Shown piece after piece: positions 4,552 through 54,242 of a stretch of DNA of 63,048 nt. The number at the start of each line of letters is the position of its first letter. Positions within the stretch are counted from its first letter, which is position 1. The stretch comes from a virus, in the IMG/VR virus record IMGVR_UViG_3300035112_000009, positions 1-63,048 of that record; one strand, written 5' to 3'. The translations under genes and the position numbers were made by a program. The notes under the pieces were generated by a model. That model searched no databases and was not told the origin of the DNA. It saw only the letters and a program-made list of their open reading frames with translations.

Positions 4552-5670
4552 ATGGCGCACAAAGTTTACCGCTTCAGAATCTATCCAACCAAACGTCAGA
4601 CGCAGACGCTTAACAACCAGCTTGCGATCTGTGCGGAGCTGTATAACGCAGGACTGCAAGAAAGACGTGACGCATGGAAGCTGAGCGGCAAATCGATTAG
4701 CTACTTTGACCAGACGCTTCAACTCGCCCAAGTAAAACCGATCAGGGACGATGTAGCCGCTATCAGCGCAAACGTCCTTGAGAATGTTTTGAAGCGCGTC
4801 GATCTTGCGTTCAACGCGTTCTTTCGCCGTGTGAAGGCCGGACAAAAGGCGGGCTACCCAAGATTCAAGTCCTTCCGACGATACGACTCCATGACGTTTC
4901 GCCAAATCGGGAACGCGATCACCAAAAACAAACTGCGCGTTTCCAAAATCGGGCAAGTGAGAATCAAGTTGCACCGCCCAATTCAGGGCACGATTAAGAC
5001 GCTCACCATCAAACGTGACGCTGGACGATGGTTGGCGATCTTTGCTTGCGAAGTGGAATCCAATCCGTTGCCCTTCAATCCGAATGTGATCGGCGTCGAT
5101 GTTGGCCTGACGCACTTCGCAACTCTGAGCAATGGGAGCACGATTGAGAACCCGCGTTACTATCGGACGGGACAAGCGGCCCTGAGGATCGCGCAGAGGC
5201 GCTTTAGTCGGCGCAGGAAAGGTTCTAATAGGCAACGAAAAGCCGTGCTGGCGGCCCAACGCGCTCACGCGCACGTACAGGCGCAACGGCGCGATTTTCT
5301 CCATAAGACTAGCCGATCCCTGGTTAGTAACTTTGGGTTGATCGCGGTCGAGAATTTGAACGTCAAAGGGATGGCGCGAAACCACAATCTCGCCAAGAGT
5401 ATTCACGATGCCGGATGGTCTACTTTTATCGATATGCTCACCTACAAAGCGGAAGATGCTGGTAGGGTGCTGGTCAAGGTCGATCCTCGCGGCACAAGTC
5501 AAACATGCACATGTGGAGCCGAAGTTCGCAAGACACTGGCAGATCGCTGGCATCTTTGTCTTTCGTGTGGTTTGTCTGCTGCTCGTGATCATGTCAGTGC
5601 TCAAGTAATTTTAGGGCGAGCGGTTCGCCTTCAGGACTTAACGGGGCCGGTTGCGGCGTCCGTGTCCTGA
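4552..5670 (+). CDS. tnpB: TnpB, IS200/IS605-family RNA-guided nuclease
   Basis: 372 aa, full length for the family. RuvC-I is GVDVGLTHFA (Asp183), RuvC-II IAVENLNVKGM (Glu267), zinc ribbon Cys319/321 and Cys336/339, and RuvC-III ARDHVSA (Asp346), so the catalytic triad looks complete. Known members use an RNA from their own 3' end (omega RNA) to guide double-strand DNA cleavage next to a short target-adjacent motif. No tnpA transposase accompanies it. It lies on the opposite strand to the surrounding operon, directly beside attP and the integrase. The omega RNA should cover the 3' end of the gene and roughly 5650-5790. Confidence 0.9.
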   Translation: MAHKVYRFRIYPTKRQTQTLNNQLAICAELYNAGLQERRDAWKLSGKSISYFDQTLQLAQVKPIRDDVAAISANVLENVLKRVDLAFNAFFRRVKAGQKAGYPRFKSFRRYDSMTFRQIGNAITKNKLRVSKIGQVRIKLHRPIQGTIKTLTIKRDAGRWLAIFACEVESNPLPFNPNVIGVDVGLTHFATLSNGSTIENPRYYRTGQAALRIAQRRFSRRRKGSNRQRKAVLAAQRAHAHVQAQRRDFLHKTSRSLVSNFGLIAVENLNVKGMARNHNLAKSIHDAGWSTFIDMLTYKAEDAGRVLVKVDPRGTSQTCTCGAEVRKTLADRWHLCLSCGLSAARDHVSAQVILGRAVRLQDLTGPVAASVS

Positions 5671-5773: not shown

Positions 5774-6001
5774 TTTGTGGAATTAAATCTGAAATGTGGT
5801 GAGCCGAGCAGGACTCGAACCTGCGACCCACTGGTTAAAAGAGTGTGGAAGCCCTCTGTGGCCCTCCGCTGGCCTCTGCCGCTCATTGCCGCATCGCTCG
5901 AAATAAAACAGCCAGAGAGCCTATTCCAGCGCCGTAGACCTTGCTGCACGATGCTGTCTGGGCTAGCATCCCGCGCACTAGGTTTGTGGCTGAATTTGTG
6001 G
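5774..6001 (+). promoter_or_regulatory. TTTGTGG repeats flanking attP, candidate integrase arm sites
   Basis: TTTGTGG occurs at 5774-5780, 5983-5989 and 5995-6001; the first and third share ATTTGTGGAAT. They lie on both sides of the tRNA-derived core and before the integrase start, where arm-type Int/Xis sites would be expected. The interval 5842-5980 holds nothing else I can identify. Confidence 0.4.
5797..5841 (-). other. attP: attP core: 3' half of a tRNA-Lys(UUU) gene
   Basis: On the minus strand this reads as the exact 3' half of a tRNA. It has a 7-base anticodon loop CTTTTAA, stem CCAGT, variable loop GGGTC, T-arm GCAGG-TTCGAGT-CCTGC, acceptor strand TCGGCTC, discriminator A and encoded CCA. 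The 5' half is absent: the bases before the loop cannot form the anticodon stem. Such half-tRNA identity next to an integrase is the signature of an attachment site that rebuilds the host tRNA on integration. Confidence 0.85.
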
Positions 6002-6006
6002 AATAG

Positions 6007-7098
6007 ATGAGCCGACCGCGTACAGGATCGATTTTCAAATGCAAAGACGGGCAGATATTTGCCCGCATAACCTTCACTGACGAGTTCGGAAAACGGCGCG
6101 ATATTAAGCGCAAAGCATTCAGCCGAACCCACGCCCGCCAACTTATCAAAGAACTTCTGAGAGAGGTCGAAGAACGCGGCGAAGAGTCTCTGGATTCGTC
6201 GCGCCTCACTTTTGCACAACTCGCCAAGCATTACAAGGATCGCTACGCTACCCCGGCCAGATTCATAGACAGCCGCAAGGTCAGCGGTCTGCGCTCTAAC
6301 GTCGAGGTCAAGAGAATTGTTGAGATCTTGGCGGATCATTTTGGTTCTAAACGTCTCCGGTCTATCACTCACGGCGATATTCTTCAGTTTAAAAGTAAAC
6401 GGCTCGACAAGCTGGTTGAGTTCAAGAAAGCACCCTCAAGACAGCGATCCATCGCCACGGTAAACAGGGAACTAACAGTGCTCCGTAGAATGCTCACGAT
6501 TGCATTCCGCGAAGGCTGGATACTCAAACACCCGTTCTCTGGCAGCGATACGATCATCTCAACATCGGACGAAACGAAACGCACTCGCATCCTGTCCGAC
6601 GCGGAAGAAGATTTGTTATTAGATGCCTGTGACGGCCCACGCGAACGACTCCGAACCATCATCATTTGCGCTCTCGATACAGGCATGAGGCGCGGCGAAA
6701 TTCTCTCGCTCAGGTGGCGTGACGTTGACCTGAAAGAGAAGCGAATCAACATCCAAGCCCTCAACACCAAGACACTGAAGGCGCGGCAAGTTCCGATCAC
6801 CCCGCGACTCTTGGAAGAACTGGAAAAACTTCCCCAGCGCGATCCTGCGCTTCGCGTGTTCGGCATAACTGACACGGTAAAAAGATCGTGGGCCACCGCC
6901 AAAAGGATCGCCGGGATTAGCGATCTAAAGTTCCACGACCTGCGGCATACGTGCGCCACAAGACTCGTGCAGGGCGGTTTGCCATTGGCTGAGGTGTCAC
7001 GCATTCTGGGCCACACTTCCATTGTCACGACGTTTCGCTACGCCAATGTTGACGACTCGACTCTTGATCGCGCCTCCGCTATTTTGACTCGCCGCTGA
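6007..7098 (+). CDS. int: Tyrosine integrase
   Basis: 363 aa with an N-terminal arm-binding domain, a SAM-like core-binding domain (about 68-175) and a catalytic domain. Catalytic residues are visible: Arg228 in TGMRRGE, His310-x-x-Arg313 in HDLRH, His336 in LGHTS and nucleophile Tyr345 in FRYAN. It should recombine attP (5797-5841) with a host tRNA-Lys gene. Its last 102 bases overlap the xis-like gene on the other strand. Confidence 0.95.
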   Translation: MSRPRTGSIFKCKDGQIFARITFTDEFGKRRDIKRKAFSRTHARQLIKELLREVEERGEESLDSSRLTFAQLAKHYKDRYATPARFIDSRKVSGLRSNVEVKRIVEILADHFGSKRLRSITHGDILQFKSKRLDKLVEFKKAPSRQRSIATVNRELTVLRRMLTIAFREGWILKHPFSGSDTIISTSDETKRTRILSDAEEDLLLDACDGPRERLRTIIICALDTGMRRGEILSLRWRDVDLKEKRINIQALNTKTLKARQVPITPRLLEELEKLPQRDPALRVFGITDTVKRSWATAKRIAGISDLKFHDLRHTCATRLVQGGLPLAEVSRILGHTSIVTTFRYANVDDSTLDRASAILTRR

Positions 7099-16464: not shown

Positions 16465-16476
16465 CTGAAGTTTCAG
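16465..16476 (-). ncRNA. Terminal palindrome over tnpB-2 stop, candidate omega-RNA hairpin
   Basis: CTGAAGTTTCAG overlaps the TGA stop; on the minus strand it folds as CTGAA-AC-TTCAG. IS605-type elements end with such subterminal hairpins, and the omega RNA scaffold ends just beyond them, putting the guide near 16440-16460. Confidence 0.4.
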
Positions 16477-17519
16477 GCGGCAATCGCTTGCCTCTCGTGG
16501 GCGGCTCCCGCCCCGGCATTCAACGTGTTCACGGCAGCGTTAATATCTCTGTCGTGCTCGGCATCACAGCCGCACGTCCAACGCCTTACCTTCAACCCTG
16601 CAAGCCCTCGCGGCCCAGTCAAAGCACCGCAAGTCGAACAGGTGATGGTGGATCTTCTGGAATCAGGTTCGTCATATTCGCTACCGCCTATACGGCTCTT
16701 GTAGGCGAACATCTGACGCATCTGATAGTGCCCCGAACTCAGGACGCTCTTGCCAAATCGCTTGGCAATTCCCTTGATGTTGTCTTTGCTGAATCTGATT
16801 ACGACGTTCTCTGAAACGAGTCGCCGCGTGAGTTTATGATTGCGATCCTTGCGCTGGTTAGTTATGCGCTCCTGGATTCGTGCGGTCAGCCTACGATCAT
16901 TCCCGCGCTGTGCCTGAGCAAGCCTCAAGGCCAAAGCCTCGCGCTCTCGCGGGTGCGCAATCTTTTCGCCAGTTGAAAGTGTTAGCAGATCGCTGAAGCC
17001 GGGATCGATTCCGATTTGACCATTGGCAATTCGCGGGATCGCATTGGGCTGCGCTTGAATGAAAACACAGAGACACCAACCAGAAGCCCTCTTTACGATC
17101 CACATCTGTCCGATATGACCTTCGGGAACGTCTTGCGCATGGAACCGGACGCGTCCGAGCTTAACCACTGAAACCCGGTCCCCATAAATCTTAGTTCCGT
17201 GAGCAAAGGCGATTGAGTTGAGACGATTGCGATAGCCTTTTAGGTGAGGCTTGCGACCGATCTTCTTAAAACATCGCTGCCACGCTTCGTGCGCAGTTTT
17301 GAGCGTGCCATCGATCACGTCCTGAGGGACTCCGATCTTTGCGCCGTGACCATTGAGTAGCTTTTGCAGGCTGAACGATGAATAGTAGATACCACCCTGA
17401 GCGTCTTGCTCGATCTTTCTCACGCCCCAATTCCACACCGATCCAAGATGGCGCAGCCAATGGTTCAACTGGCGCTCTTGGCGCGGCGTGAGTTTCAGTT
17501 TTAGCTGGCGTTGAATCAT
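16473..17519 (-). CDS. tnpB: TnpB-like protein with altered RuvC-II residue
   Basis: 348 aa from ATG 17519 (a TTG at 17543 is possible). RuvC-I GIDPGFSDLL (Asp172), zinc ribbon CSTCG/CGC, and RuvC-III DRDINAA (Asp325) are present. At the RuvC-II position, where TnpB-1 has VENLNVKG, this protein reads FSKDNIKG, so the Glu is replaced by Ser244. Glu284, just before the zinc ribbon, could serve instead; branches of TnpB with rearranged catalytic sites are known. Otherwise it would be nuclease-dead. No tnpA. Located between the first switch regulator and the recombination genes. Confidence 0.85.
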   Translation of the reverse strand: MIQRQLKLKLTPRQERQLNHWLRHLGSVWNWGVRKIEQDAQGGIYYSSFSLQKLLNGHGAKIGVPQDVIDGTLKTAHEAWQRCFKKIGRKPHLKGYRNRLNSIAFAHGTKIYGDRVSVVKLGRVRFHAQDVPEGHIGQMWIVKRASGWCLCVFIQAQPNAIPRIANGQIGIDPGFSDLLTLSTGEKIAHPREREALALRLAQAQRGNDRRLTARIQERITNQRKDRNHKLTRRLVSENVVIRFSKDNIKGIAKRFGKSVLSSGHYQMRQMFAYKSRIGGSEYDEPDSRRSTITCSTCGALTGPRGLAGLKVRRWTCGCDAEHDRDINAAVNTLNAGAGAAHERQAIAA

Positions 17520-17592
17520 CTTGTCTTGAGCCCGTTCGGTCAATTTGCTGCTTTGCGGAATCTCGCGTTCGTGATATACAGACTGGAAAATT

Positions 17593-17620
17593 CAGGGCGA
17601 GCGAAACTTAACCCGCCCTG
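17593..17620 (-). other. Hairpin between XRE gene and tnpB-2
   Basis: CAGGGCG (17593-17599) pairs with CGCCCTG (17614-17620), 14-nt loop, no T tract. It may be the left-end hairpin of the tnpB-2 element or a weak terminator of the regulator gene. Confidence 0.4.
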
Positions 17621-17621
17621 C

Positions 17622-17891
17622 CTACCGCGCAGAACCCCCATTCAACACGGCAAGATGAAACTTTGATTTCGGTAGTTCGAGGTCGAATAAGTGCTTCCAA
17701 CTAACGCCCAAGCCGTCTGCCATTTGCCGGAGCTTCGTTGTGGTCTTGAGTTTTCCGGCCAGAGCTGCATCAACGGAGGGACGGGAAACGCCGCACTCGT
17801 CGGCGGTTTGAATGATGTCCCAGCCCCGGCGCTCCATTGCGTAGGCTATTAAATCGACTCGGTACAGTGGCGTTTTATTTGTGGTTGGCAT
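17622..17891 (-). CDS. XRE-family regulator heading the leftward early operon
   Basis: 89 aa from ATG 17891 (AGGA 10 bases upstream; longer frames upstream read through the promoter). HTH: WDIIQTADECGVSRPSVDAA, then LAGKLKTTTKLRQMADGLGV. As the first gene in the same direction as the recombination and replication genes, a Cro-like role is likelier than CI. A repressor role cannot be excluded. Its promoter and operators are at 17893-17955. Confidence 0.75.
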   Translation of the reverse strand: MPTTNKTPLYRVDLIAYAMERRGWDIIQTADECGVSRPSVDAALAGKLKTTTKLRQMADGLGVSWKHLFDLELPKSKFHLAVLNGGSAR

Positions 17892-17892
17892 C

Positions 17893-17955
17893 CGATTATT
17901 TCCTGCTAGGGGGATAATAAAAAACTTTTCATGAGAAGTCAACAAGAAATAATCG
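17893..17955 (-). promoter_or_regulatory. Switch promoter with operators
   Basis: Minus-strand promoter: -35 TTGACT (17942-17937), 17-bp spacer, -10 TATTAT (17919-17914). A near-palindrome ACTTTTCATGAGAAGT (17924-17939) covers the spacer. A perfect 10-bp inverted repeat, CGATTATTTC (17893-17902) and GAAATAATCG (17946-17955), brackets it. CAGGAAATAATCGG, the minus-strand form of the left arm, is repeated exactly at 19887-19900. Geometry fits an autoregulated operator. Confidence 0.65.
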
Positions 17956-17990
17956 AAATCTTTCCGACTATAGTGGGACGGCCCGGTGCT

Positions 17991-18392
17991 ATGCTTCCGG
18001 ATACCGTGAAAAGGCAGAGAGAAACGCTGCAAGAGTGGATTCAGCGTAAGGATAAAGAAATGCAGGGCACCCTGATCGGTGACCGCTATGCGGGCCACCC
18101 GGCCCTCTCGGATCGGGCCAAGCGCCGGGGACATGCCATCTCTGCGGGTTATCTGGATAACCTCGCAAACGGCAAAGCCACGAACCCCAGCGCGAAGCTA
18201 ATGGAGGCCATCGCAGCGGCTTATGCCGTGCCCCTTACGGAGATCATTGCCGTTGTTTTTGACTTGCCGAGTGATCAGGCAGTGAATGGGATTGCCAGGG
18301 ATTTGATTGAGAAATACGAAACTCTTCCACCATCAAAGCAGCGGGAGAAGCAGCCTTTATTGGAAATGGTGATCCGGGAACTTCAGCGGTAG
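17991..18392 (+). CDS. XRE-family regulator, CI-like candidate
   Basis: 133 aa from ATG 17991; an ATG at 17931 falls inside the operator palindrome and is less likely. The HTH region is split by a short insert (LQEWIQRKD ... GHAISAGYLDNLANGKATNP, then AKLMEAIAAAYAVPLTEI), followed by a helical tail (EKYETLPPSKQREKQ) that may dimerise. A TATAGT -10 is at 17969-17974 with a poor -35, so activation may be needed. Divergent from the Cro-like gene across the shared operators. Confidence 0.75.
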   Translation: MLPDTVKRQRETLQEWIQRKDKEMQGTLIGDRYAGHPALSDRAKRRGHAISAGYLDNLANGKATNPSAKLMEAIAAAYAVPLTEIIAVVFDLPSDQAVNGIARDLIEKYETLPPSKQREKQPLLEMVIRELQR

Positions 18393-18393
18393 G

Positions 18394-19350
18394 CTAATTC
18401 TCTGAGTCGGTCTGAGGCTCGTCTATTTGCTGAGGTCGAAATCTCGCAACCTGAGCCTGATAGAAATTCTCAAACTCCGCGGTTAAAACAATCAGTCTGC
18501 GCATGGCTCGATCTGCAATAGGCTCGTCAGGCATTGAGAGCCCAGCGATTAATTCAAATAATTCCAGAGCGTGTTGGGCGTCATCATTGACCGTTAAGGT
18601 ATGAATGAGTTCTTCTGAACGTTCCAGTGTCAGGGCAAGAGGCATTGTGCGGCTAGCCTTTCCGGGAGACGAGGGTTGACGGGGCGAGTCAACAAGGTCG
18701 GGCGTATCTTCTAACATGATCCGCTTATCGTACACAAGACTTAAACGCTCAAATTCCAACCGTGCGGCTGTTTTATTTTCGCAGAGAACCAATGCGATCC
18801 CGTGCGTAGTCAAAGCCTCGGCTAACACGTTGGGCTGATCTACCTGTTGAAGTAATTCTACCGCAACCCGGCTTTCTATTTCTGCCGCTTCCGCGTTTCC
18901 TTCATCTAAGAAGATTCGCGCCTTCTGATCATGCGACTGCCCAAGATTCCCGGTATCGGTAAACAATGTCAGCGCCTTATCGACGCTTTCATGCGCGAGC
19001 ACGTGATTACCTAACAGTGAAAAAGATCGGGCCGCGTTGTTCATGGCGATCGCTTGAAGTTCGACGTTCCCACAGGCTTCAAAGTGCGCCGCAGCGCCGG
19101 AGAATTCAATGACGGCCGGATCGTGCTGTCCCAAGTCTTGCAGCGCCATCGCCCTGGTATTGTGAAACCTCCCCCGCCGATCATCTGAAACCATCTCAAT
19201 CATGGGTTCAGCTTCCGCAAGCAAGTCCAGCGAAGCCTGAAAATCGCCCCGTTTCCATAGATCCACCGCTTCCGTAAGCAGAGCACAGAACCGTACCTCA
19301 ACCTCTCGGTCTACGCTCTGATTTGTCGCAAAAATAAAAGCTGAACTCAA
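18394..19350 (-). CDS. TPR-repeat protein in the lysogeny switch, candidate peptide sensor
   Basis: 318 aa, TTG start at 19350 behind GGGGAGAAC (no ATG before residue 50). Helical repeats of TPR type run from about residue 30 to 200 (for example RFHNTRAMALQDLGQHDPAV, AIAMNNAARSFSLLGNHVLA). A Ser/Pro linker (about 220-235) and a second helical block follow. No DNA-binding domain. Stop is one base from the convergent CI-like gene. It starts 14 bp from the divergent secreted-peptide gene. TPR proteins without HTH can sense peptides (Rap-type); that role here is inference. Confidence 0.75.
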   Translation of the reverse strand: MSSAFIFATNQSVDREVEVRFCALLTEAVDLWKRGDFQASLDLLAEAEPMIEMVSDDRRGRFHNTRAMALQDLGQHDPAVIEFSGAAAHFEACGNVELQAIAMNNAARSFSLLGNHVLAHESVDKALTLFTDTGNLGQSHDQKARIFLDEGNAEAAEIESRVAVELLQQVDQPNVLAEALTTHGIALVLCENKTAARLEFERLSLVYDKRIMLEDTPDLVDSPRQPSSPGKASRTMPLALTLERSEELIHTLTVNDDAQHALELFELIAGLSMPDEPIADRAMRRLIVLTAEFENFYQAQVARFRPQQIDEPQTDSEN

Positions 19351-19364
19351 GCTAAGTTCTCCCC

Positions 19365-19532
19365 ATGAAAAAGCTACTTTTCGCCCTAACCATCGTGTGC
19401 GTTATCGCCCTTTCCGTCATAGCTCAGGAACCTCCGGTGTGCATACCGGGGAGCATACCCACGCCGCCGGGATGCGCCGAACCGTCGTCATTTATGGACG
19501 ATGTTCTGTGCGCGGTCGGATTCTGCTTCTAA
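19365..19532 (+). CDS. Small secreted peptide, candidate signalling pro-peptide
   Basis: 55 aa, ATG 19365 to TAA 19530-19532. Clear Sec signal: MKK, hydrophobic core LLFALTIVCVIALSV, cleavage after VIA before QEPP. The predicted mature part is 35 aa, Pro-rich in its first half, with four Cys (positions 26, 37, 49 and 54 of the precursor) and a hydrophobic CAVGFCF end. No Shine-Dalgarno is visible. Its start is 14 bp from the TPR gene (divergent) and its end overlaps the XRE-3 gene by 4 bp (convergent). Confidence 0.6.
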   Translation: MKKLLFALTIVCVIALSVIAQEPPVCIPGSIPTPPGCAEPSSFMDDVLCAVGFCF

Positions 19533-19804
19533 CGCTTCTTCCCGTTCGCTTCTGCCGACTTAGGGCGACGTGTGCCTACAAACTGAACCAAGTCGCCAAC
19601 GTTGCAGTTTAACGCCCTTGCAATCTTCCACAAGGTTCGCAAGTCGGGCAATCGTGAGCCGTTTTTAGGGTTGTAATTCCACGCCGCTGTAGCCATTGAG
19701 CGGCTTATGTTTGCAGCTGCTGCTAACTGGCTCGGGTTCTCAATCTTCTTGGATTCAAGAGCCCGCGCAGCTCTCTGAATCGTCAATCGAATATCAGGTT
19801 CCAT
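19529..19804 (-). CDS. XRE-family regulator (HTH_26-like)
   Basis: 91 aa from ATG 19804. HTH: NPSQLAAAANISRSMATAAW, then RLPDLRTLWKIARALNCNVG, basic C-terminal tail ANGKKR. Its own promoter reads TTGAAG, 17 bp, TATAGT and places +1 at or next to the ATG (leaderless). Convergent with the peptide gene, overlapping 4 bp. Third DNA-binding regulator of the switch. Confidence 0.75.
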   Translation of the reverse strand: MEPDIRLTIQRAARALESKKIENPSQLAAAANISRSMATAAWNYNPKNGSRLPDLRTLWKIARALNCNVGDLVQFVGTRRPKSAEANGKKR

Positions 19805-19811
19805 GCCCCGC

Positions 19812-19840
19812 ACTATACCGATCCGGCATTAAAACTTCAA
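19812..19840 (-). promoter_or_regulatory. Promoter of XRE-3, leaderless
   Basis: -35 TTGAAG (19840-19835), 17-bp spacer, -10 TATAGT (19817-19812); the ATG at 19804 is 7 bases beyond the -10, so the mRNA should have no or almost no leader. Confidence 0.6.
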
Positions 19841-19886
19841 TCTTTATTTGTACCGTTTGCGGAACGCCTTTAGCCTCAAGGGGTTA

Positions 19887-19900
19887 CAGGAAATAATCGG
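19887..19900 (+). promoter_or_regulatory. Operator-like 14-mer before the rightward early operon
   Basis: CAGGAAATAATCGG is identical to the minus strand at 17905-17892, next to the switch promoter. It lies 55 bp before the first gene of the 19.95-27.24 kb operon. A GTACC/GGTAC hairpin (19929-19944) and AT-rich AATAAT words between suggest the promoter is here. Confidence 0.5.
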
Positions 19901-19954
19901 CTATCGACAAATAATAGTAGACAAGAGCGTACCTTTCGCGGTACAGTAACGCGT

Positions 19955-20551
19955 ATGGCAACAACACGGCGACCATGTAAAGAGGCGGGGTGCGAGCGAC
20001 GAGCGTGTGCGCGGGGATGGTGCACGGCACATTACCAGCGCTGGTACAAAGGTCAGCCCATGAACGGCCCGATTCAAGCGTATCGGGTAGGCATTAAGTC
20101 GCCTTGCGGGGTTGAAGGCTGCGAGCGAATTGCCAGCACTCGCGGCCTCTGTGTGCGGCACTATTCGCGTGTACGCAAATACGGCGATCCGTTGGCTTAT
20201 CACCGAAAGGGCCGGCCTCCTATCAGGACGGAGCTTCCGCCCGAAACAAGCCCTACAAAGCTCGGTAGACTTTTAGGTGTATCCCGGCAGCGTGCGCATC
20301 AGCTCTTGAACAAAGAAGCGCACAACGCGCGCATCGTACTCGGCCAAGCCGTCAAAGCCGGGACAGTAACTAAGCCAGAAAGGTGCGAACGCTGCCAAAA
20401 ACAAACCAGCGATCTTGAGGCTCATCATTGGGATTATCGAGAAGCCTTAGACGTGCGCTGGCTCTGTCCGCTCTGTCACGCAATCGTTCATCCCCACGGT
20501 AACAAATACGGGAGAAGCGGAAAGCCTAGCCCTGAATCAATCGCAGCGTAG
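19955..20551 (+). CDS. Zinc-knuckle and HNH-like DNA-binding protein
   Basis: 198 aa. Two related N-terminal motifs of form C-x4-C-x8-C-x2-H (about 8-30 and 52-76), a helix-turn-helix (LGRLLGVSRQRAHQLLNKEA), and a C-terminal C-x2-C ... HH ... C-x2-CH HNH-like site (CERCQKQ, EAHHWDY, CPLCHAIVH). Resembles phage HNH endonuclease-like proteins. First gene of the rightward operon, so a regulator or early nuclease. Confidence 0.6.
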   Translation: MATTRRPCKEAGCERRACARGWCTAHYQRWYKGQPMNGPIQAYRVGIKSPCGVEGCERIASTRGLCVRHYSRVRKYGDPLAYHRKGRPPIRTELPPETSPTKLGRLLGVSRQRAHQLLNKEAHNARIVLGQAVKAGTVTKPERCERCQKQTSDLEAHHWDYREALDVRWLCPLCHAIVHPHGNKYGRSGKPSPESIAA

Positions 20552-20600
20552 CTCAGAGCGGCAGAAGATGGCCGCGTAAACGAAAGAGGGGGAATCACTA

Positions 20601-49452: not shown

Positions 49453-49671
49453 ATGACGAGAGCACAACGGACTATCTTCATATTTGGCGCGATTGCCATT
49501 CTCGCTGCTCTGCTGTTTCCCCCGTGGGTTACTGAAGGTGGCTCAAAGGGATACCATTTCCTGTTTAGCGGGGTCTCTTATCGAATCAACACATCACTTC
49601 TCTTTATCCAGGTAGCTTCAATCGCGGTAATCACGCTGTTCGTTTACTTCGCCGCTAAGTCCCGCGCTTAG
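49453..49671 (+). CDS. Plus-strand membrane protein, 72 aa
   Basis: Two transmembrane helices (IFIFGAIAILAALLFPPW and LLFIQVASIAVITLFVYFAA), GGAG ribosome-binding site. Convergent with the ejection-protein gene (4-bp overlap). An isolated unit in the late region; may alter the lysogen membrane, for example superinfection exclusion (inference). Confidence 0.6.
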   Translation: MTRAQRTIFIFGAIAILAALLFPPWVTEGGSKGYHFLFSGVSYRINTSLLFIQVASIAVITLFVYFAAKSRA

Positions 49672-52600
49672 TGCCCGCGCTTTTTCTTTGAATCGTAAAC
49701 CGACACGCCCTCACCTAACGTAGACAGCGGCAGGGTTTCAGCTACACCCGTCCAGCCGTCTGCGTCATAGGCATCACTCGCATCTGAATAGATCATCGGC
49801 AACAGGCGATTAGCTAACGCACTGGTGTCTCTGCGATTGCTGGGCACACCAAGCAGTGACGTAGGATCTCCCTTAAAGTCTGTGCCATAGGTCTCACCGC
49901 CCACCTTTTTCTTCTGAGCTAAAAAGAGATCGTGAACAAGCGAAGCGTTAGGCGATTCCTTACCCCTGAAGTAATGCTCCAGGACGTTGACAGGCTCCGT
50001 CTTGGTTGCCCGGCCCTGCTGCCGATCGTAGAAGGCTTTCATCAATCGAGTAGCAACACGAATATGACTCTGGAAACCTCCTGAAAAATCAACATGTAAC
50101 TTGCCCCAACGGGCCTTTAGGAAGTCGGGCGAGTTCGGATCGGTGTCTACCTCGGCACCTGACAACTTGGCGAGCGCCAACTGTGAACTAACAAGGCCCG
50201 CATAACTGAACAGTGTTTTGAATGCTTCGACTCGTGCCGGCCGCGTCATTTGCGTGTAGGTCCTGGGATCGAAAGGTATGCTCAGCATCTTCACCCGTGA
50301 GGCCCAAAAGCGCGGACTGAAGATCACCGTTGCTAATGCTGGCGATGCGCTCTGAAGTCTGCCCAACGAACCTCTACCCGTTGCGTTATTGATCAAAGAA
50401 ACGCCTTCCTCGAACGCTTGGCGATCCTTTGGATTCTCCGGGTCGAGTCCCAACTTTCTCAGCTTAGCAACGTAGTCCTTGAACCATCCCATTCTGAGAT
50501 GATCTGCCATCGTTGAATACGCTTGTTCGCTATGCCTGACAATCGGCAACTTCTGAACAAATCGAGATTGGAATGCTTCTTCACGGCCACCCAACGGCGA
50601 ATGTTCAGATGCTCCCACGGATGTAAGATCCAATCCAAACCGTTTGGCATACTTGAACTCAGGATCGGTTTCCAGCTGTGAAACTAGCCGCTCGTATTGC
50701 TTCGTGTTCAGCGCTTTGAATTGCTTAACGAACGCATCGGCCCATATCTTTGGATGACGGGCAAGGCCCATCTTCCCCTGCCGGAATCCGAACGACAGAT
50801 CAGCCGTAGTCGTCAATGCTCGGGTAAGCCCGGTCACGTCCACAATGCCACGCCCAACCTTTTGCATCCGAGTCGCGCTTAGATCGCGGAAGGTGCGCGC
50901 CAAGTTAGCTCGGGCTTTCCTAGCTTCTGTCTGAGCATCTAACCGTTCATTGATGACTGCCTGAACATTCTTTGCATCGGGCTGGGCTCTGAGCGCTCCG
51001 CGAACTCGAGACTCCTGGAGGAATTGCTTTCGCTGTTCATCGTAAAGCGCGTAACTCGATTTGTAGATTCGATCGAGATGCGGCTTGATAGCGTCCCCAA
51101 ACTCTTCGGCCATCTGCTTCGACCACTCTGCCGCCGTGATCCCCTTGCGAGCCAGCTTCGCAGCCCCAATCACCGAGTAGTCTGCGATGTCCAATGCAAC
51201 CGCCGCAGGATTCACGGCAGCGCCTCGTTGCCCGCGCGGACCTTTAGTCGCCTCGATCATTTGCGCCTTACGAGCCTCTAGCCTGGCCCGCGCATCCGTC
51301 TCCATCTTCACCAATCGCTCTTGCAGGTTGCCGACTCGCTGACGTGCTGACTTCTCCGTAACAGGAGGCGCGCCGGAATCCTGCATTTGCTTTTCAAGAG
51401 CAGAGATCCGCGCCTCGGCTTGCTCAACTCTTTTGGCCTGCTCCAGCAGGCTTTGCGCTTGGCCTCGGGTTAGCTTTTGCTCCGGTCGCAACTGTTTTTG
51501 CGCAGCCAATAACACACCCTCAGGTGAGAGACGCGACACTATCGATGCTGCCTGGATCGACTGACCGGCCTCAGTTAGTTTCCGCGATAGGTCGCTGGCG
51601 ACATTCACGGCACTTTCAAGATTGCCCTGATCTTGCAGATGCTTTATCAACAGAATCCCTGCTGCCGTATCCTCGGCTGTTATCTCTTTCCGCGCAGCAA
51701 GGTCCGCAACGGAACGCTCAACTCCGTCTGATTTGATCTTCTGGGCCGCTCGGGTTAAGGCTTCGGCATTTGTGATTACCGTGTAATCGCGATTCTCTCC
51801 ACCTTGAAGCCCTGCGCGTTCGAGCGTCTGAGGGAAAGAACGTTGCCGGGTTACGGGTTCGGGCGGAGCAGACTGCGATGGTCTGACGCGCTCCAGCGCT
51901 GTTGTAGGTTCTGGAGTGGAGACCGCCACGGGCGCGGCCTCTGCTGGCATAGTCGATGCGGGCTTGCTGGCGGATTCAATCGGGGTGCCCGTTTGAGGGA
52001 CTAATGTTTCAGGACTTGTTCCGCGGCGATCGATGACTCTGAATGGCGCTGTGCGTTCCGCTTCGCCTTGCGCATCAACTTCTTGGGCGCTCATCGGCTT
52101 TTCACGAATCGGGACAGCGATCTGATTGCCTTCACCGCGCATGTTCGGACGTTGAATAACATGCTCAACACCTGACTCGTCCAGTACACGAACCTTGCCA
52201 CGTGTTACGCCTGCCTGGTTTGCGGATTCCGTGACCGCCCCAAAGTCTCGATGCTGCCAGCGGTTCAGCTTCGCGCCTTCCTCAACGGCAACAATAGGCT
52301 TGCGCGGTCCAACAACTCCGAGGTTTTCCGGGATTTGATTTATCGGCGGACGCGATTGAATCTCAGGAGATACCTCTGCCGGCTGAACACCTCGAAGTTG
52401 ATCGCGAACCCTTACTCCACGCGGACTTGGCAACGCATTAACAGCGGATTCTTTGGCGGCAATCTCCCGCTGGAAGTCGGGCACAACCTGCGCGCGCTCC
52501 ACTCCCAACGTCCTACCTTCGCGGGCCGCAATATCCAATGGCACGTCAGGATTGCCCTGCCTAGCACCAACCGGAAATGCTGCGCCAGTAATCGCAGATT

Positions 52601-54242
52601 GAAATATCTCTTTCGGGCCCGCACCACCTGCCGCGGCGCTTCCTGCCAAGCCTGCCGCGCCCGCAGTTCTTAGTAACGCTTGCCGCTCCACAGCAGACAG
52701 AGCATTAGCGTTGACTGCTTGCCCGATCGGGCCCGTGGCAGCTATTGGGGCGGCGAGTATCCCGGCCTTGTACGCGGCTTCTGGGCCTCTCTGAACGTTC
52801 TCCAGTGCTTGTTCAGCAGGGAAGGCTGCGCCGCCTCCTAAAGCCTCAGCACGAGTAATAGCGCCCGCTGTACCAAGTCCCGTCTCTGCCGCCGTGCCCG
52901 TCCATGTGGTTTGCCTCGGAATGCTTTCCTGCGCTTGAGCGATCGCCAGAGCATTAGGATCGGATTGGGGATCGACCTCAGCTGGGCGTTTACCCGTCAA
53001 AGCTTCCGTCGCAGCCAATACAGGGCTTGTTAGGCGAGCCGCAGTCGGTGCCAAGTCCGCAACGTTCTGGGCGAGTTGATTTGTCCGCAGCAGCTCACGG
53101 GCTCCTGCCTGCGCGAGATCCTGCCTAACGCCCTCACCCGCCTTTAACTCGTTCTTGATGTCGCGAGCAACCGCCGCTCTGCCTGATTCTTGCGAACTTA
53201 CCGCTGCCTCATAAGCCTTTCGCCCTCCGAGGCCATAAGCATTTATTGCGTCGATCAGCGCTCGGGTGGGGCGCCCGTGGGCCACGAAAGACCCATCAGG
53301 CAACTGCTCCACCGCCGCGTTACCCGTAAGCGGCACTCCCATCTCCTGCCTGAATTGTTTTGCGAGTTCGCCGTATCCAGGCCCAAGCTGTTCTAATAGT
53401 GCATCGTCTACTTGTTCGGAGGTTGGCTTCTCTTTGAATCGGACCTCGATATGCTTACCCAGAAGATCGGGGTGATTAGCGGGTAGTTGCATTCCCTGCA
53501 TTCGCACCTGCTCAGCCAATTCTTTTGATGATTGGGCTAGTCGGTTTAGCCCGGATTCGGCACGGGGATCGGCTGGCTCAAACTTTAACGGCTGACGCTT
53601 AACGGGCTCGGGCAGTACATCGCCACCGACTTCTGTAACTGTAGAAGTGACGCGCGGTTTGATCGGCTGACGAACACCTTTAGCCGCACCTTGCATTTCC
53701 GTGGGCAGTTCGGCATATGGTTCGCTTGGGTTTGGCGTGTCAGTAAAAGTGAACTCTTCTGGCTTGGTTCCGTTGAAAATGCTGTAGACGTGATCACGAG
53801 TATTGATTAGCCCGTCGCCAACGTCAGGAATGCCCACGCCCCCGCTTTTTAGATCCTTCTCTACGTTCCCGGCCCCAGCATGATACGCAGCCACTGCTCG
53901 CATCCATGCGCCTCGCTCAGACGGCGCTCCTTGCCGGAATTTGTCGTAGTTCTGCTTTAGCAGGTACAAGCCTGCGTAAGCATTATCGAGCGGGTTATTG
54001 TTGTCGAGATTCTTTCCCGTCTGCTTACTAATTCCTGCCAGCGTGTCGGGCATGACCTGGAAGCGGCCACGAGCGCCAACAGGCGAGACAGCGGAGGTGT
54101 TACCACCAGACTCCTGGTTAACCATTCGATCAACCAAGACCTTCGGGATCTTAAACTTCGTGCGGAGTTGATCGATAGCAGAATCGAGATCGATCTGATC
54201 GTCAGGCGGGCTTGAGCGGGGTAGTTGGGATTGAGGTGTCAT
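49668..54242 (-). CDS. Large ejection/polyvalent protein with lytic transglycosylase domain
   Basis: 1524 aa, the largest protein. Residues about 20-130 are an SLT-type transglycosylase (DRMVNQESGGNTSAVSPVGA, GRFQVMPDTL, then AVAAYHAGAGNV; catalytic Glu in NQESGG). There follow long low-complexity and coiled-coil stretches, then a C-terminal region (about 1130-1500) resembling large polyvalent-protein domains. It probably enters the cell with DNA and opens peptidoglycan. It contains the only peptidoglycan-cleaving domain I can find. Confidence 0.8.
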   Translation of the reverse strand: MTPQSQLPRSSPPDDQIDLDSAIDQLRTKFKIPKVLVDRMVNQESGGNTSAVSPVGARGRFQVMPDTLAGISKQTGKNLDNNNPLDNAYAGLYLLKQNYDKFRQGAPSERGAWMRAVAAYHAGAGNVEKDLKSGGVGIPDVGDGLINTRDHVYSIFNGTKPEEFTFTDTPNPSEPYAELPTEMQGAAKGVRQPIKPRVTSTVTEVGGDVLPEPVKRQPLKFEPADPRAESGLNRLAQSSKELAEQVRMQGMQLPANHPDLLGKHIEVRFKEKPTSEQVDDALLEQLGPGYGELAKQFRQEMGVPLTGNAAVEQLPDGSFVAHGRPTRALIDAINAYGLGGRKAYEAAVSSQESGRAAVARDIKNELKAGEGVRQDLAQAGARELLRTNQLAQNVADLAPTAARLTSPVLAATEALTGKRPAEVDPQSDPNALAIAQAQESIPRQTTWTGTAAETGLGTAGAITRAEALGGGAAFPAEQALENVQRGPEAAYKAGILAAPIAATGPIGQAVNANALSAVERQALLRTAGAAGLAGSAAAGGAGPKEIFQSAITGAAFPVGARQGNPDVPLDIAAREGRTLGVERAQVVPDFQREIAAKESAVNALPSPRGVRVRDQLRGVQPAEVSPEIQSRPPINQIPENLGVVGPRKPIVAVEEGAKLNRWQHRDFGAVTESANQAGVTRGKVRVLDESGVEHVIQRPNMRGEGNQIAVPIREKPMSAQEVDAQGEAERTAPFRVIDRRGTSPETLVPQTGTPIESASKPASTMPAEAAPVAVSTPEPTTALERVRPSQSAPPEPVTRQRSFPQTLERAGLQGGENRDYTVITNAEALTRAAQKIKSDGVERSVADLAARKEITAEDTAAGILLIKHLQDQGNLESAVNVASDLSRKLTEAGQSIQAASIVSRLSPEGVLLAAQKQLRPEQKLTRGQAQSLLEQAKRVEQAEARISALEKQMQDSGAPPVTEKSARQRVGNLQERLVKMETDARARLEARKAQMIEATKGPRGQRGAAVNPAAVALDIADYSVIGAAKLARKGITAAEWSKQMAEEFGDAIKPHLDRIYKSSYALYDEQRKQFLQESRVRGALRAQPDAKNVQAVINERLDAQTEARKARANLARTFRDLSATRMQKVGRGIVDVTGLTRALTTTADLSFGFRQGKMGLARHPKIWADAFVKQFKALNTKQYERLVSQLETDPEFKYAKRFGLDLTSVGASEHSPLGGREEAFQSRFVQKLPIVRHSEQAYSTMADHLRMGWFKDYVAKLRKLGLDPENPKDRQAFEEGVSLINNATGRGSLGRLQSASPALATVIFSPRFWASRVKMLSIPFDPRTYTQMTRPARVEAFKTLFSYAGLVSSQLALAKLSGAEVDTDPNSPDFLKARWGKLHVDFSGGFQSHIRVATRLMKAFYDRQQGRATKTEPVNVLEHYFRGKESPNASLVHDLFLAQKKKVGGETYGTDFKGDPTSLLGVPSNRRDTSALANRLLPMIYSDASDAYDADGWTGVAETLPLSTLGEGVSVYDSKKKRGH

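Follow-up and report, generated by a model that had tools for sequence, protein, structure and literature searches.

Two opposed blocks of early genes meet at 17.5-19.95 kb of the window (the whole stretch of DNA that was analysed, 63,048 bases, which is an entire IMG/VR virus record), the rightward block running from 19955. The genes that lie between them alternate in strand, in the order XRE-A (minus), XRE-B (plus), TPR (minus), peptide (plus) and XRE-C (minus), and the features of this region are as follows.

17622..17891, minus strand: XRE-A regulator, first gene of the leftward side; weak HTH_3 match, below the Pfam cut-off
17892..17904, minus strand: operator-like word AGGAAATAATCGG, copy 1, between XRE-A and XRE-B
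17914..17942, minus strand: leftward promoter-like site TTGACT-17-TATTAT, from a sigma-70 scan
17931..18392, plus strand: XRE-B regulator, tail-to-tail with the TPR gene; weak HTH_3 match, below the Pfam cut-off
17944-17956, plus strand: two-mismatch copy of the operator-like word, at the XRE-A/XRE-B promoters
18394..19350, minus strand: TPR protein, 318 aa, with a TTG start behind GGGGAGA
19328..19376, plus strand: 49-bp element conserved in a related phage, ungapped, 78%, E 8e-5
19353..19358, plus strand: -10-like box TAAGTT, 6 nt before the peptide ATG
19365..19532, plus strand: Sec-signal propeptide gene, 55 aa, ATG start, predicted cleavage after residue 20
19529..19804, minus strand: XRE-C regulator, tail-to-tail with the peptide gene (4-bp overlap); above the Pfam cut-off
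19812..19840, minus strand: promoter-like site TTGAAG-17-TATAGT, ending 7 nt before the XRE-C ATG
19888..19900, plus strand: operator-like word, copy 2, beside the rightward early promoter
19918..19947, plus strand: rightward early promoter-like site TAGACA-18-TACAGT, ending 7 nt before the first gene (19955)

A preliminary description of this DNA placed a peptide gene and a divergent TPR gene among three XRE regulators, between two early operons and inside a lysogeny switch. Three HTH genes do flank the pair, but XRE-C is the only one that passes the Pfam cut-off, the other two being weak matches. The assignment of the locus to a lysogeny switch is supported by the opposed promoters and by the presence of the operator-like word at both early promoters. 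This 13-bp word has exactly two exact copies genome-wide. At up to three mismatches there are 17 matches against 15.7 expected, which is no excess, and the argument for an operator is therefore made from the two exact copies and their positions. Their placement is what one operator common to both early promoters would look like; the word is absent from the TPR/peptide junction. The sites also offer a lead to which of the XRE proteins is the master repressor. The promoter-like site before XRE-C probably serves the TPR gene as well.

The window carries a 127-bp direct terminal repeat, so the genome is probably complete. A tyrosine integrase (6007..7098, plus strand; PF00589, E 6.9e-31) has just upstream of it the 3' half of a tRNA-Lys (UUU), read by eye on the minus strand at about 5797-5846; ARAGORN found no whole tRNA in the window, and this half is the probable attP core. 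Given the integrase and the likely attP, the phage is very likely temperate. Other genes recognised in the window encode a terminase, a major head protein, DnaB, Erf and YqaJ. There are also two IS605 OrfB/TnpB-like genes (PF07282, PF01385), one at 16473-17543 (minus strand) directly after XRE-A and the other at 4552-5670 (plus strand) adjoining the integrase and attP, and no TnpA partner for either was recognised in the window.

The GC content of the window is ~53% and the switch promoters look sigma-70-like. The named neighbours of the integrase and the terminase are too distant to indicate a host. A protein of 1524 aa encoded in the virion region (49668-54242, minus strand) has an N-terminal transglycosylase SLT domain and is reminiscent of the ejected internal proteins of short-tailed phages. 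Such a protein would suit a didermal host, of which it is no proof, and we infer that the host is perhaps didermal.

The peptide frame is as described: a 55-codon frame with a Sec signal (MKKLLFALTIVCVIALSVIA) followed by a mature part of 35 residues with four Cys (QEPPVCIPGSIPTPPGCAEPSSFMDDVLCAVGFCF), the cleavage site between them being assigned by rule. Its start codon lies 14 bp (19351-19364) from that of the divergent TPR gene, and the coordinates of both genes were confirmed. We applied a crude Sec rule to ATG ORFs of 35-90 aa. The peptide, with clear n-, h- and c-regions by this rule, is the top scorer among 210 such ORFs in the window, of which two pass; passes average 0.35 per shuffled window, and 172 kb of other phage loci yield four. 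The frame has a codon score just below zero (-0.1 bits per codon), and nothing resembling the mature part was found in Pfam, PHROGs or NCBIfam.

The TPR protein matches Pfam TPR_12 over its gathering score (E 2.3e-8), a match that is generic. The claim that it lacks an HTH was borne out, none being found by Pfam or in a structure model. That model, built on a two-row alignment in place of a poor single-sequence fold (pLDDT 54), has a mean pLDDT of 70, rising to about 88-97 over residues 21-170, and in it residues 10-215 contain ten helices that make up five TPRs, beyond which come a linker of low confidence and weak C-terminal helices. The nearest solved folds by Foldseek are the TPR domains of kinesin light chain (KLC) and LGN, several of which were solved with bound peptides. 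For this partly confident model, the best 50 Foldseek matches include no structure of Rap, Rgg, PlcR or AimR, and no phage AimR was matched in a viral structure library. Among the models of Pfam and NCBIfam only generic TPR models match, and none for the RRNPP receptors (Rap, Rgg, NprR, PlcR, PrgX, AimR).

Single-sequence scans with the TPR protein or the peptide gave no match in IMG/VR, GTDB genomes, phages or plasmids. A two-row TPR profile, together with the TPR protein of the related phage described below, matched in IMG/VR only that relative, and yielded nothing useful in phages or plasmids. A TPR_12 gene is missing from all 48 other tested relatives, which were found via Erf or distant terminases; the TPR gene is therefore specific to this type of switch. 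Erf- or terminase-found relatives were also matched by neither the TPR nor the XRE-B profile and thus add no further instance, which leaves the known instances of the pair at two.

The second instance is in IMGVR_UViG_3300026530_000001, a temperate phage of 62 kb with its own integrase and a terminase 80% identical to that of the window in a terminase scan. A 14-kb locus of this phage (L019) carries the following genes.

L019:6199-6351, minus strand: divergent Sec-signal ORF, 50 aa, counterpart of the window peptide
L019:6385-6747, plus strand: DUF4326 gene, between the peptide and TPR genes and overlapping the start of the TPR gene
L019:6744-7628: TPR homologue, 294 aa, TPR_12 over gathering score
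L019:7618-8079: XRE-B homologue, 25% over 151 aa, E 7e-13, tail-to-tail with the TPR gene
L019:8089-8406: XRE-A homologue, E 2e-6, beyond the XRE-B homologue

The two TPR proteins are 46% identical over residues 5-185 (E 9e-40) and 41% over the alignment. The relative's peptide, MKKLTLTALLILTFSTVLFA followed by GDTNSPPCAESSSPIPLSLIVGLVTIAIKP, has a clear Sec signal and a different mature part, with one Cys and a hydrophobic stretch, IPLSLIVGLVTIAI, at its end; the window's mature peptide has no comparable stretch. Its ORF overlaps an HTH gene tail-to-tail, as the window peptide gene does XRE-C, and this HTH gene is unrelated to XRE-C. Both phages thus have the order HTH, divergent Sec peptide, TPR, XRE-B, XRE-A. 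Since the DUF4326 gene has been inserted and the HTH gene replaced, the order of peptide, TPR, XRE-B and XRE-A has held through a change of neighbours. A Sec-like ORF would be expected in the relative's 175-bp gap by chance with a frequency of about 0.004, a rough figure taken from the density in other loci. The preliminary description had proposed a search of relatives for the pair and had staked the idea, among other things, on the peptide frame being kept beside TPR homologues; in the one case available it is kept, at the same place in that phage's switch. The same locus of the relative encodes, at L019 3760-4773 (minus strand), a protein of tandem repeats (SSHVEAWG / SSHVEARG).

BLASTN of window positions 17001-20600 against the relative's locus gave a single significant match between the switches, the 49-bp element at the TPR/peptide junction. 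The element contains a GCAAAAATAAA stretch, a TANNNT box and the first four peptide codons; within it ATGAAAAAGCTA is identical in both phages, as are the first 12 coding bases, so that, within the switch, conservation of the DNA is highest upstream of the peptide and over its first four codons. The relative has TAAAAT at the place of the window's TAAGTT box. The background frequency of a TANNNT 5-8 nt upstream is 2.2% of all ATGs in the window, and no Shine-Dalgarno site precedes the peptide in either phage. Given the -10-like box 6 nt before the ATG and the missing Shine-Dalgarno site, the peptide gene may be leaderless, a geometry first noticed on inspection and then compared with the background. 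A Shine-Dalgarno site is likewise lacking before XRE-C and before the first rightward gene, which carry TATAGT and TACAGT, respectively, 7 nt before the ATG, and these boxes fall inside promoters found independently by the sigma-70 scan. The scan gave no promoter for the peptide gene, for which the 49-bp element is the probable promoter. The simplest reading of this geometry would be that several switch genes, the peptide gene included, are made from leaderless transcripts. The arrangement at 19353-19364, 19805-19817 and 19942-19954 (three switch genes) resembles that of lambda cI transcribed from PRM. A Bacteroidetes-type promoter (TAnnTTTG) in the conserved element was considered and dropped, since the TPR gene would then have no start codon before residue 43; the sigma-70-like look of the other switch promoters also disfavours it.

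Identity between the two TPR proteins, by blocks of 20 residues, is about 35-60% up to residue 180 and 10-15% in 181-220. The mature peptides share PPxCAExSS and then diverge completely, the shared part being not significant alone (p about 0.06-0.08 by shuffling). Hence the mature peptide and the TPR region past residue 180 are both strongly divergent between the phages. A conserved middle and a variable end, in these two sequences, would be consistent with a propeptide that carries its signal at the end. The preliminary description had called the peptide Cys-rich, which applies to the window peptide with its four Cys but not to the relative's, which has one; a disulfide-rich fold is therefore not the conserved feature, and Cys-richness was dropped as a defining property.

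We regard the head-to-head pair as a good candidate for a chemical signal between viruses, outside the bacteria known for such signals. The best mechanism that we can propose, tentatively and by analogy with Rap proteins, is an antirepressor sensor controlled by an exported peptide, to which we give somewhat less than an even chance. The steps that we infer for it run from export and processing through re-import and binding to an XRE target and an effect on lysogeny. A cytosolic protein with five TPRs and no DNA-binding domain would bind a neighbouring XRE regulator and so relieve repression; XRE-B, being adjacent and conserved, would be the best candidate target. The propeptide would be made from its own, probably leaderless, promoter, exported by Sec and then trimmed. 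It would accumulate as infected or lysogenic neighbours become more numerous, re-enter the cell, fill the TPR groove and switch the antirepressor off, so that where phage is abundant repression, and with it lysogeny, would win.

In favour of such a sensor are the gene order kept in a second temperate phage, the low chance frequency of the relative's ORF, the conserved DNA upstream of the peptide, the joint divergence of the mature peptide and the TPR region past residue 180, the peptide-binding KLC and LGN folds, the specificity of the TPR gene to this switch type, the match to the five-point RRNPP signature and the precedent of Rap_pLS20, the last two being taken up below. Against it stand the two instances only, the divergent orientation of the peptide gene, the DUF4326 gene between the pair in the relative and the absence of RRNPP receptor homology in Pfam, NCBIfam and Foldseek. 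In addition, we know of no route into the cytosol for such a peptide in a didermal host.

The main rival, which we consider only slightly less likely than the sensor, is that the peptide is an envelope peptide expressed by the prophage, acting in superinfection exclusion or lysogenic conversion, while the TPR protein has an unconnected role inside the cell, in regulation or defence, and the two genes are neighbours only as lysogeny genes. Small exported products encoded beside repressors are common exclusion genes; the relative's hydrophobic end could sit in a membrane, the peptide gene has a promoter-like element of its own, and in the relative DUF4326 separates it from the TPR gene. However, the window's mature peptide has no such hydrophobic end, and the two genes stayed paired despite the change of HTH gene and the insertion. 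A pairing with a TPR gene that is rare in related phages would also go unexplained. It is quite unlikely, in our judgement, that the TPR protein senses some other host or phage protein and that the peptide acts within its producer only, as an autocrine timer or a non-exported partner. TPR domains mostly bind proteins, those nearest in fold here are eukaryotic scaffolds, and a didermal host would make re-import of a peptide of 30-35 residues difficult, but one would not expect a cytosolic partner to carry a clear cleavable Sec signal, as both peptides do. Least probable, by a small margin, is that the short frames are accidental and untranslated and that the 49-bp element serves the TPR side as a promoter or operator: the negative codon score, the missing Shine-Dalgarno site, the lack of a homologue in any library and the non-significant similarity of the mature parts would suit this, but the same gap, on the same side, is occupied by a Sec ORF starting MKKL in a diverged phage, its first 12 coding bases are identical, and both have a leaderless start geometry common to other switch genes.

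The fullest form of the proposal, that soil phages of a non-Bacillota, perhaps didermal, host have a lysis-lysogeny peptide communication of independent origin, with a leaderless propeptide and an HTH-less TPR antirepressor of XRE repressors, is unlikely when taken as a whole. If it were true, phage-to-phage peptide signalling would extend beyond Bacillota and would have arisen more than once, and a didermal host would have to provide a route for both export and re-import of the peptide. Metagenomic prophages could then also be searched by a two-gene signature, in which a TPR gene and a short Sec ORF stand head-to-head and a TANNNT box closely precedes the ATG of the ORF.

Phr and AimP genes usually lie downstream of their receptor genes, in the same orientation, and RapI-PhrI of ICEBs1 is similar to the system of plasmid pLS20 discussed below. 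The RRNPP signature has five computable points: a small propeptide, a Sec signal, a receptor of 250-500 aa, TPRs and neighbouring genes (PMC10075063). The window shows all five and the relative four. Both propeptides (55 and 50 aa) are within 10-100 aa, Sec export is predicted for both by the crude rule only, the receptors have 318 and 294 aa, and TPR_12 is over its gathering score in both, with five TPRs in the model. The genes are direct neighbours in the window (14 bp), whereas DUF4326 intervenes in the relative. The strict level of the signature adds an annotated propeptide or a high-confidence ribosome-binding site (PMC10075063); neither phage has a Shine-Dalgarno site, and both show leaderless geometry instead. 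Candidates that RRNPP_detector lists for phages and prophages, including those with the layout "RRNPP next to divergent c1 repressor and operon", likewise lie among repressor genes near an early operon, although that survey covers Firmicutes and their elements (PMC10075063) and the window pair has no RRNPP receptor homology. Since no kinship was detected, we do not file the pair as RRNPP by descent.

In the arbitrium system of SPbeta-group Bacillus phages, AimR-AimP-AimX, a TPR protein and an exported short propeptide are likewise encoded in a phage lysogeny region (PMC6458997). Here, in contrast, the TPR protein has no HTH, the XRE regulators are separate, and gene order and strand differ. 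Resemblance to AimP stays below the cut-off: the NCBIfam model NF033802 gives 18.2 bits against a cut-off of 35, over residues 1-20 only, which are the signal peptide. For want of an HTH and with the AimP cut-off missed, the pair is not filed as arbitrium. What stands of the earlier analogy with arbitrium and RRNPP systems is the temperate phage, the switch locus, the conserved linkage and the five points; neither sequence nor fold searches related the TPR protein to AimR, Rap or any other RRNPP receptor.

The closest parallel in layout is the conjugation switch of the Bacillus plasmid pLS20, in which Rap_pLS20, an HTH-less TPR antirepressor, binds the separate repressor Rco_pLS20 and is released by the exported Phr peptide (PMC7430634). 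No Rap model matches the phage protein in Pfam or NCBIfam and no Rap structure is among its best 50 matches, and the peptide gene here is divergent rather than downstream. The mature peptides, with four or one Cys, are also unlike that of pLS20, and the host is perhaps didermal. The likenesses are of arrangement: each system sits at the switch of a mobile element and has an HTH-less TPR protein beside a separate HTH repressor, XRE-B being tail-to-tail with the TPR gene in both phages; the peptide gene adjoins the TPR gene in each, and the Phr_pLS20 propeptide, at 44 aa, compares with 55 and 50 aa here. By this analogy, the phage pair may work like a Rap-Phr antirepressor switch.
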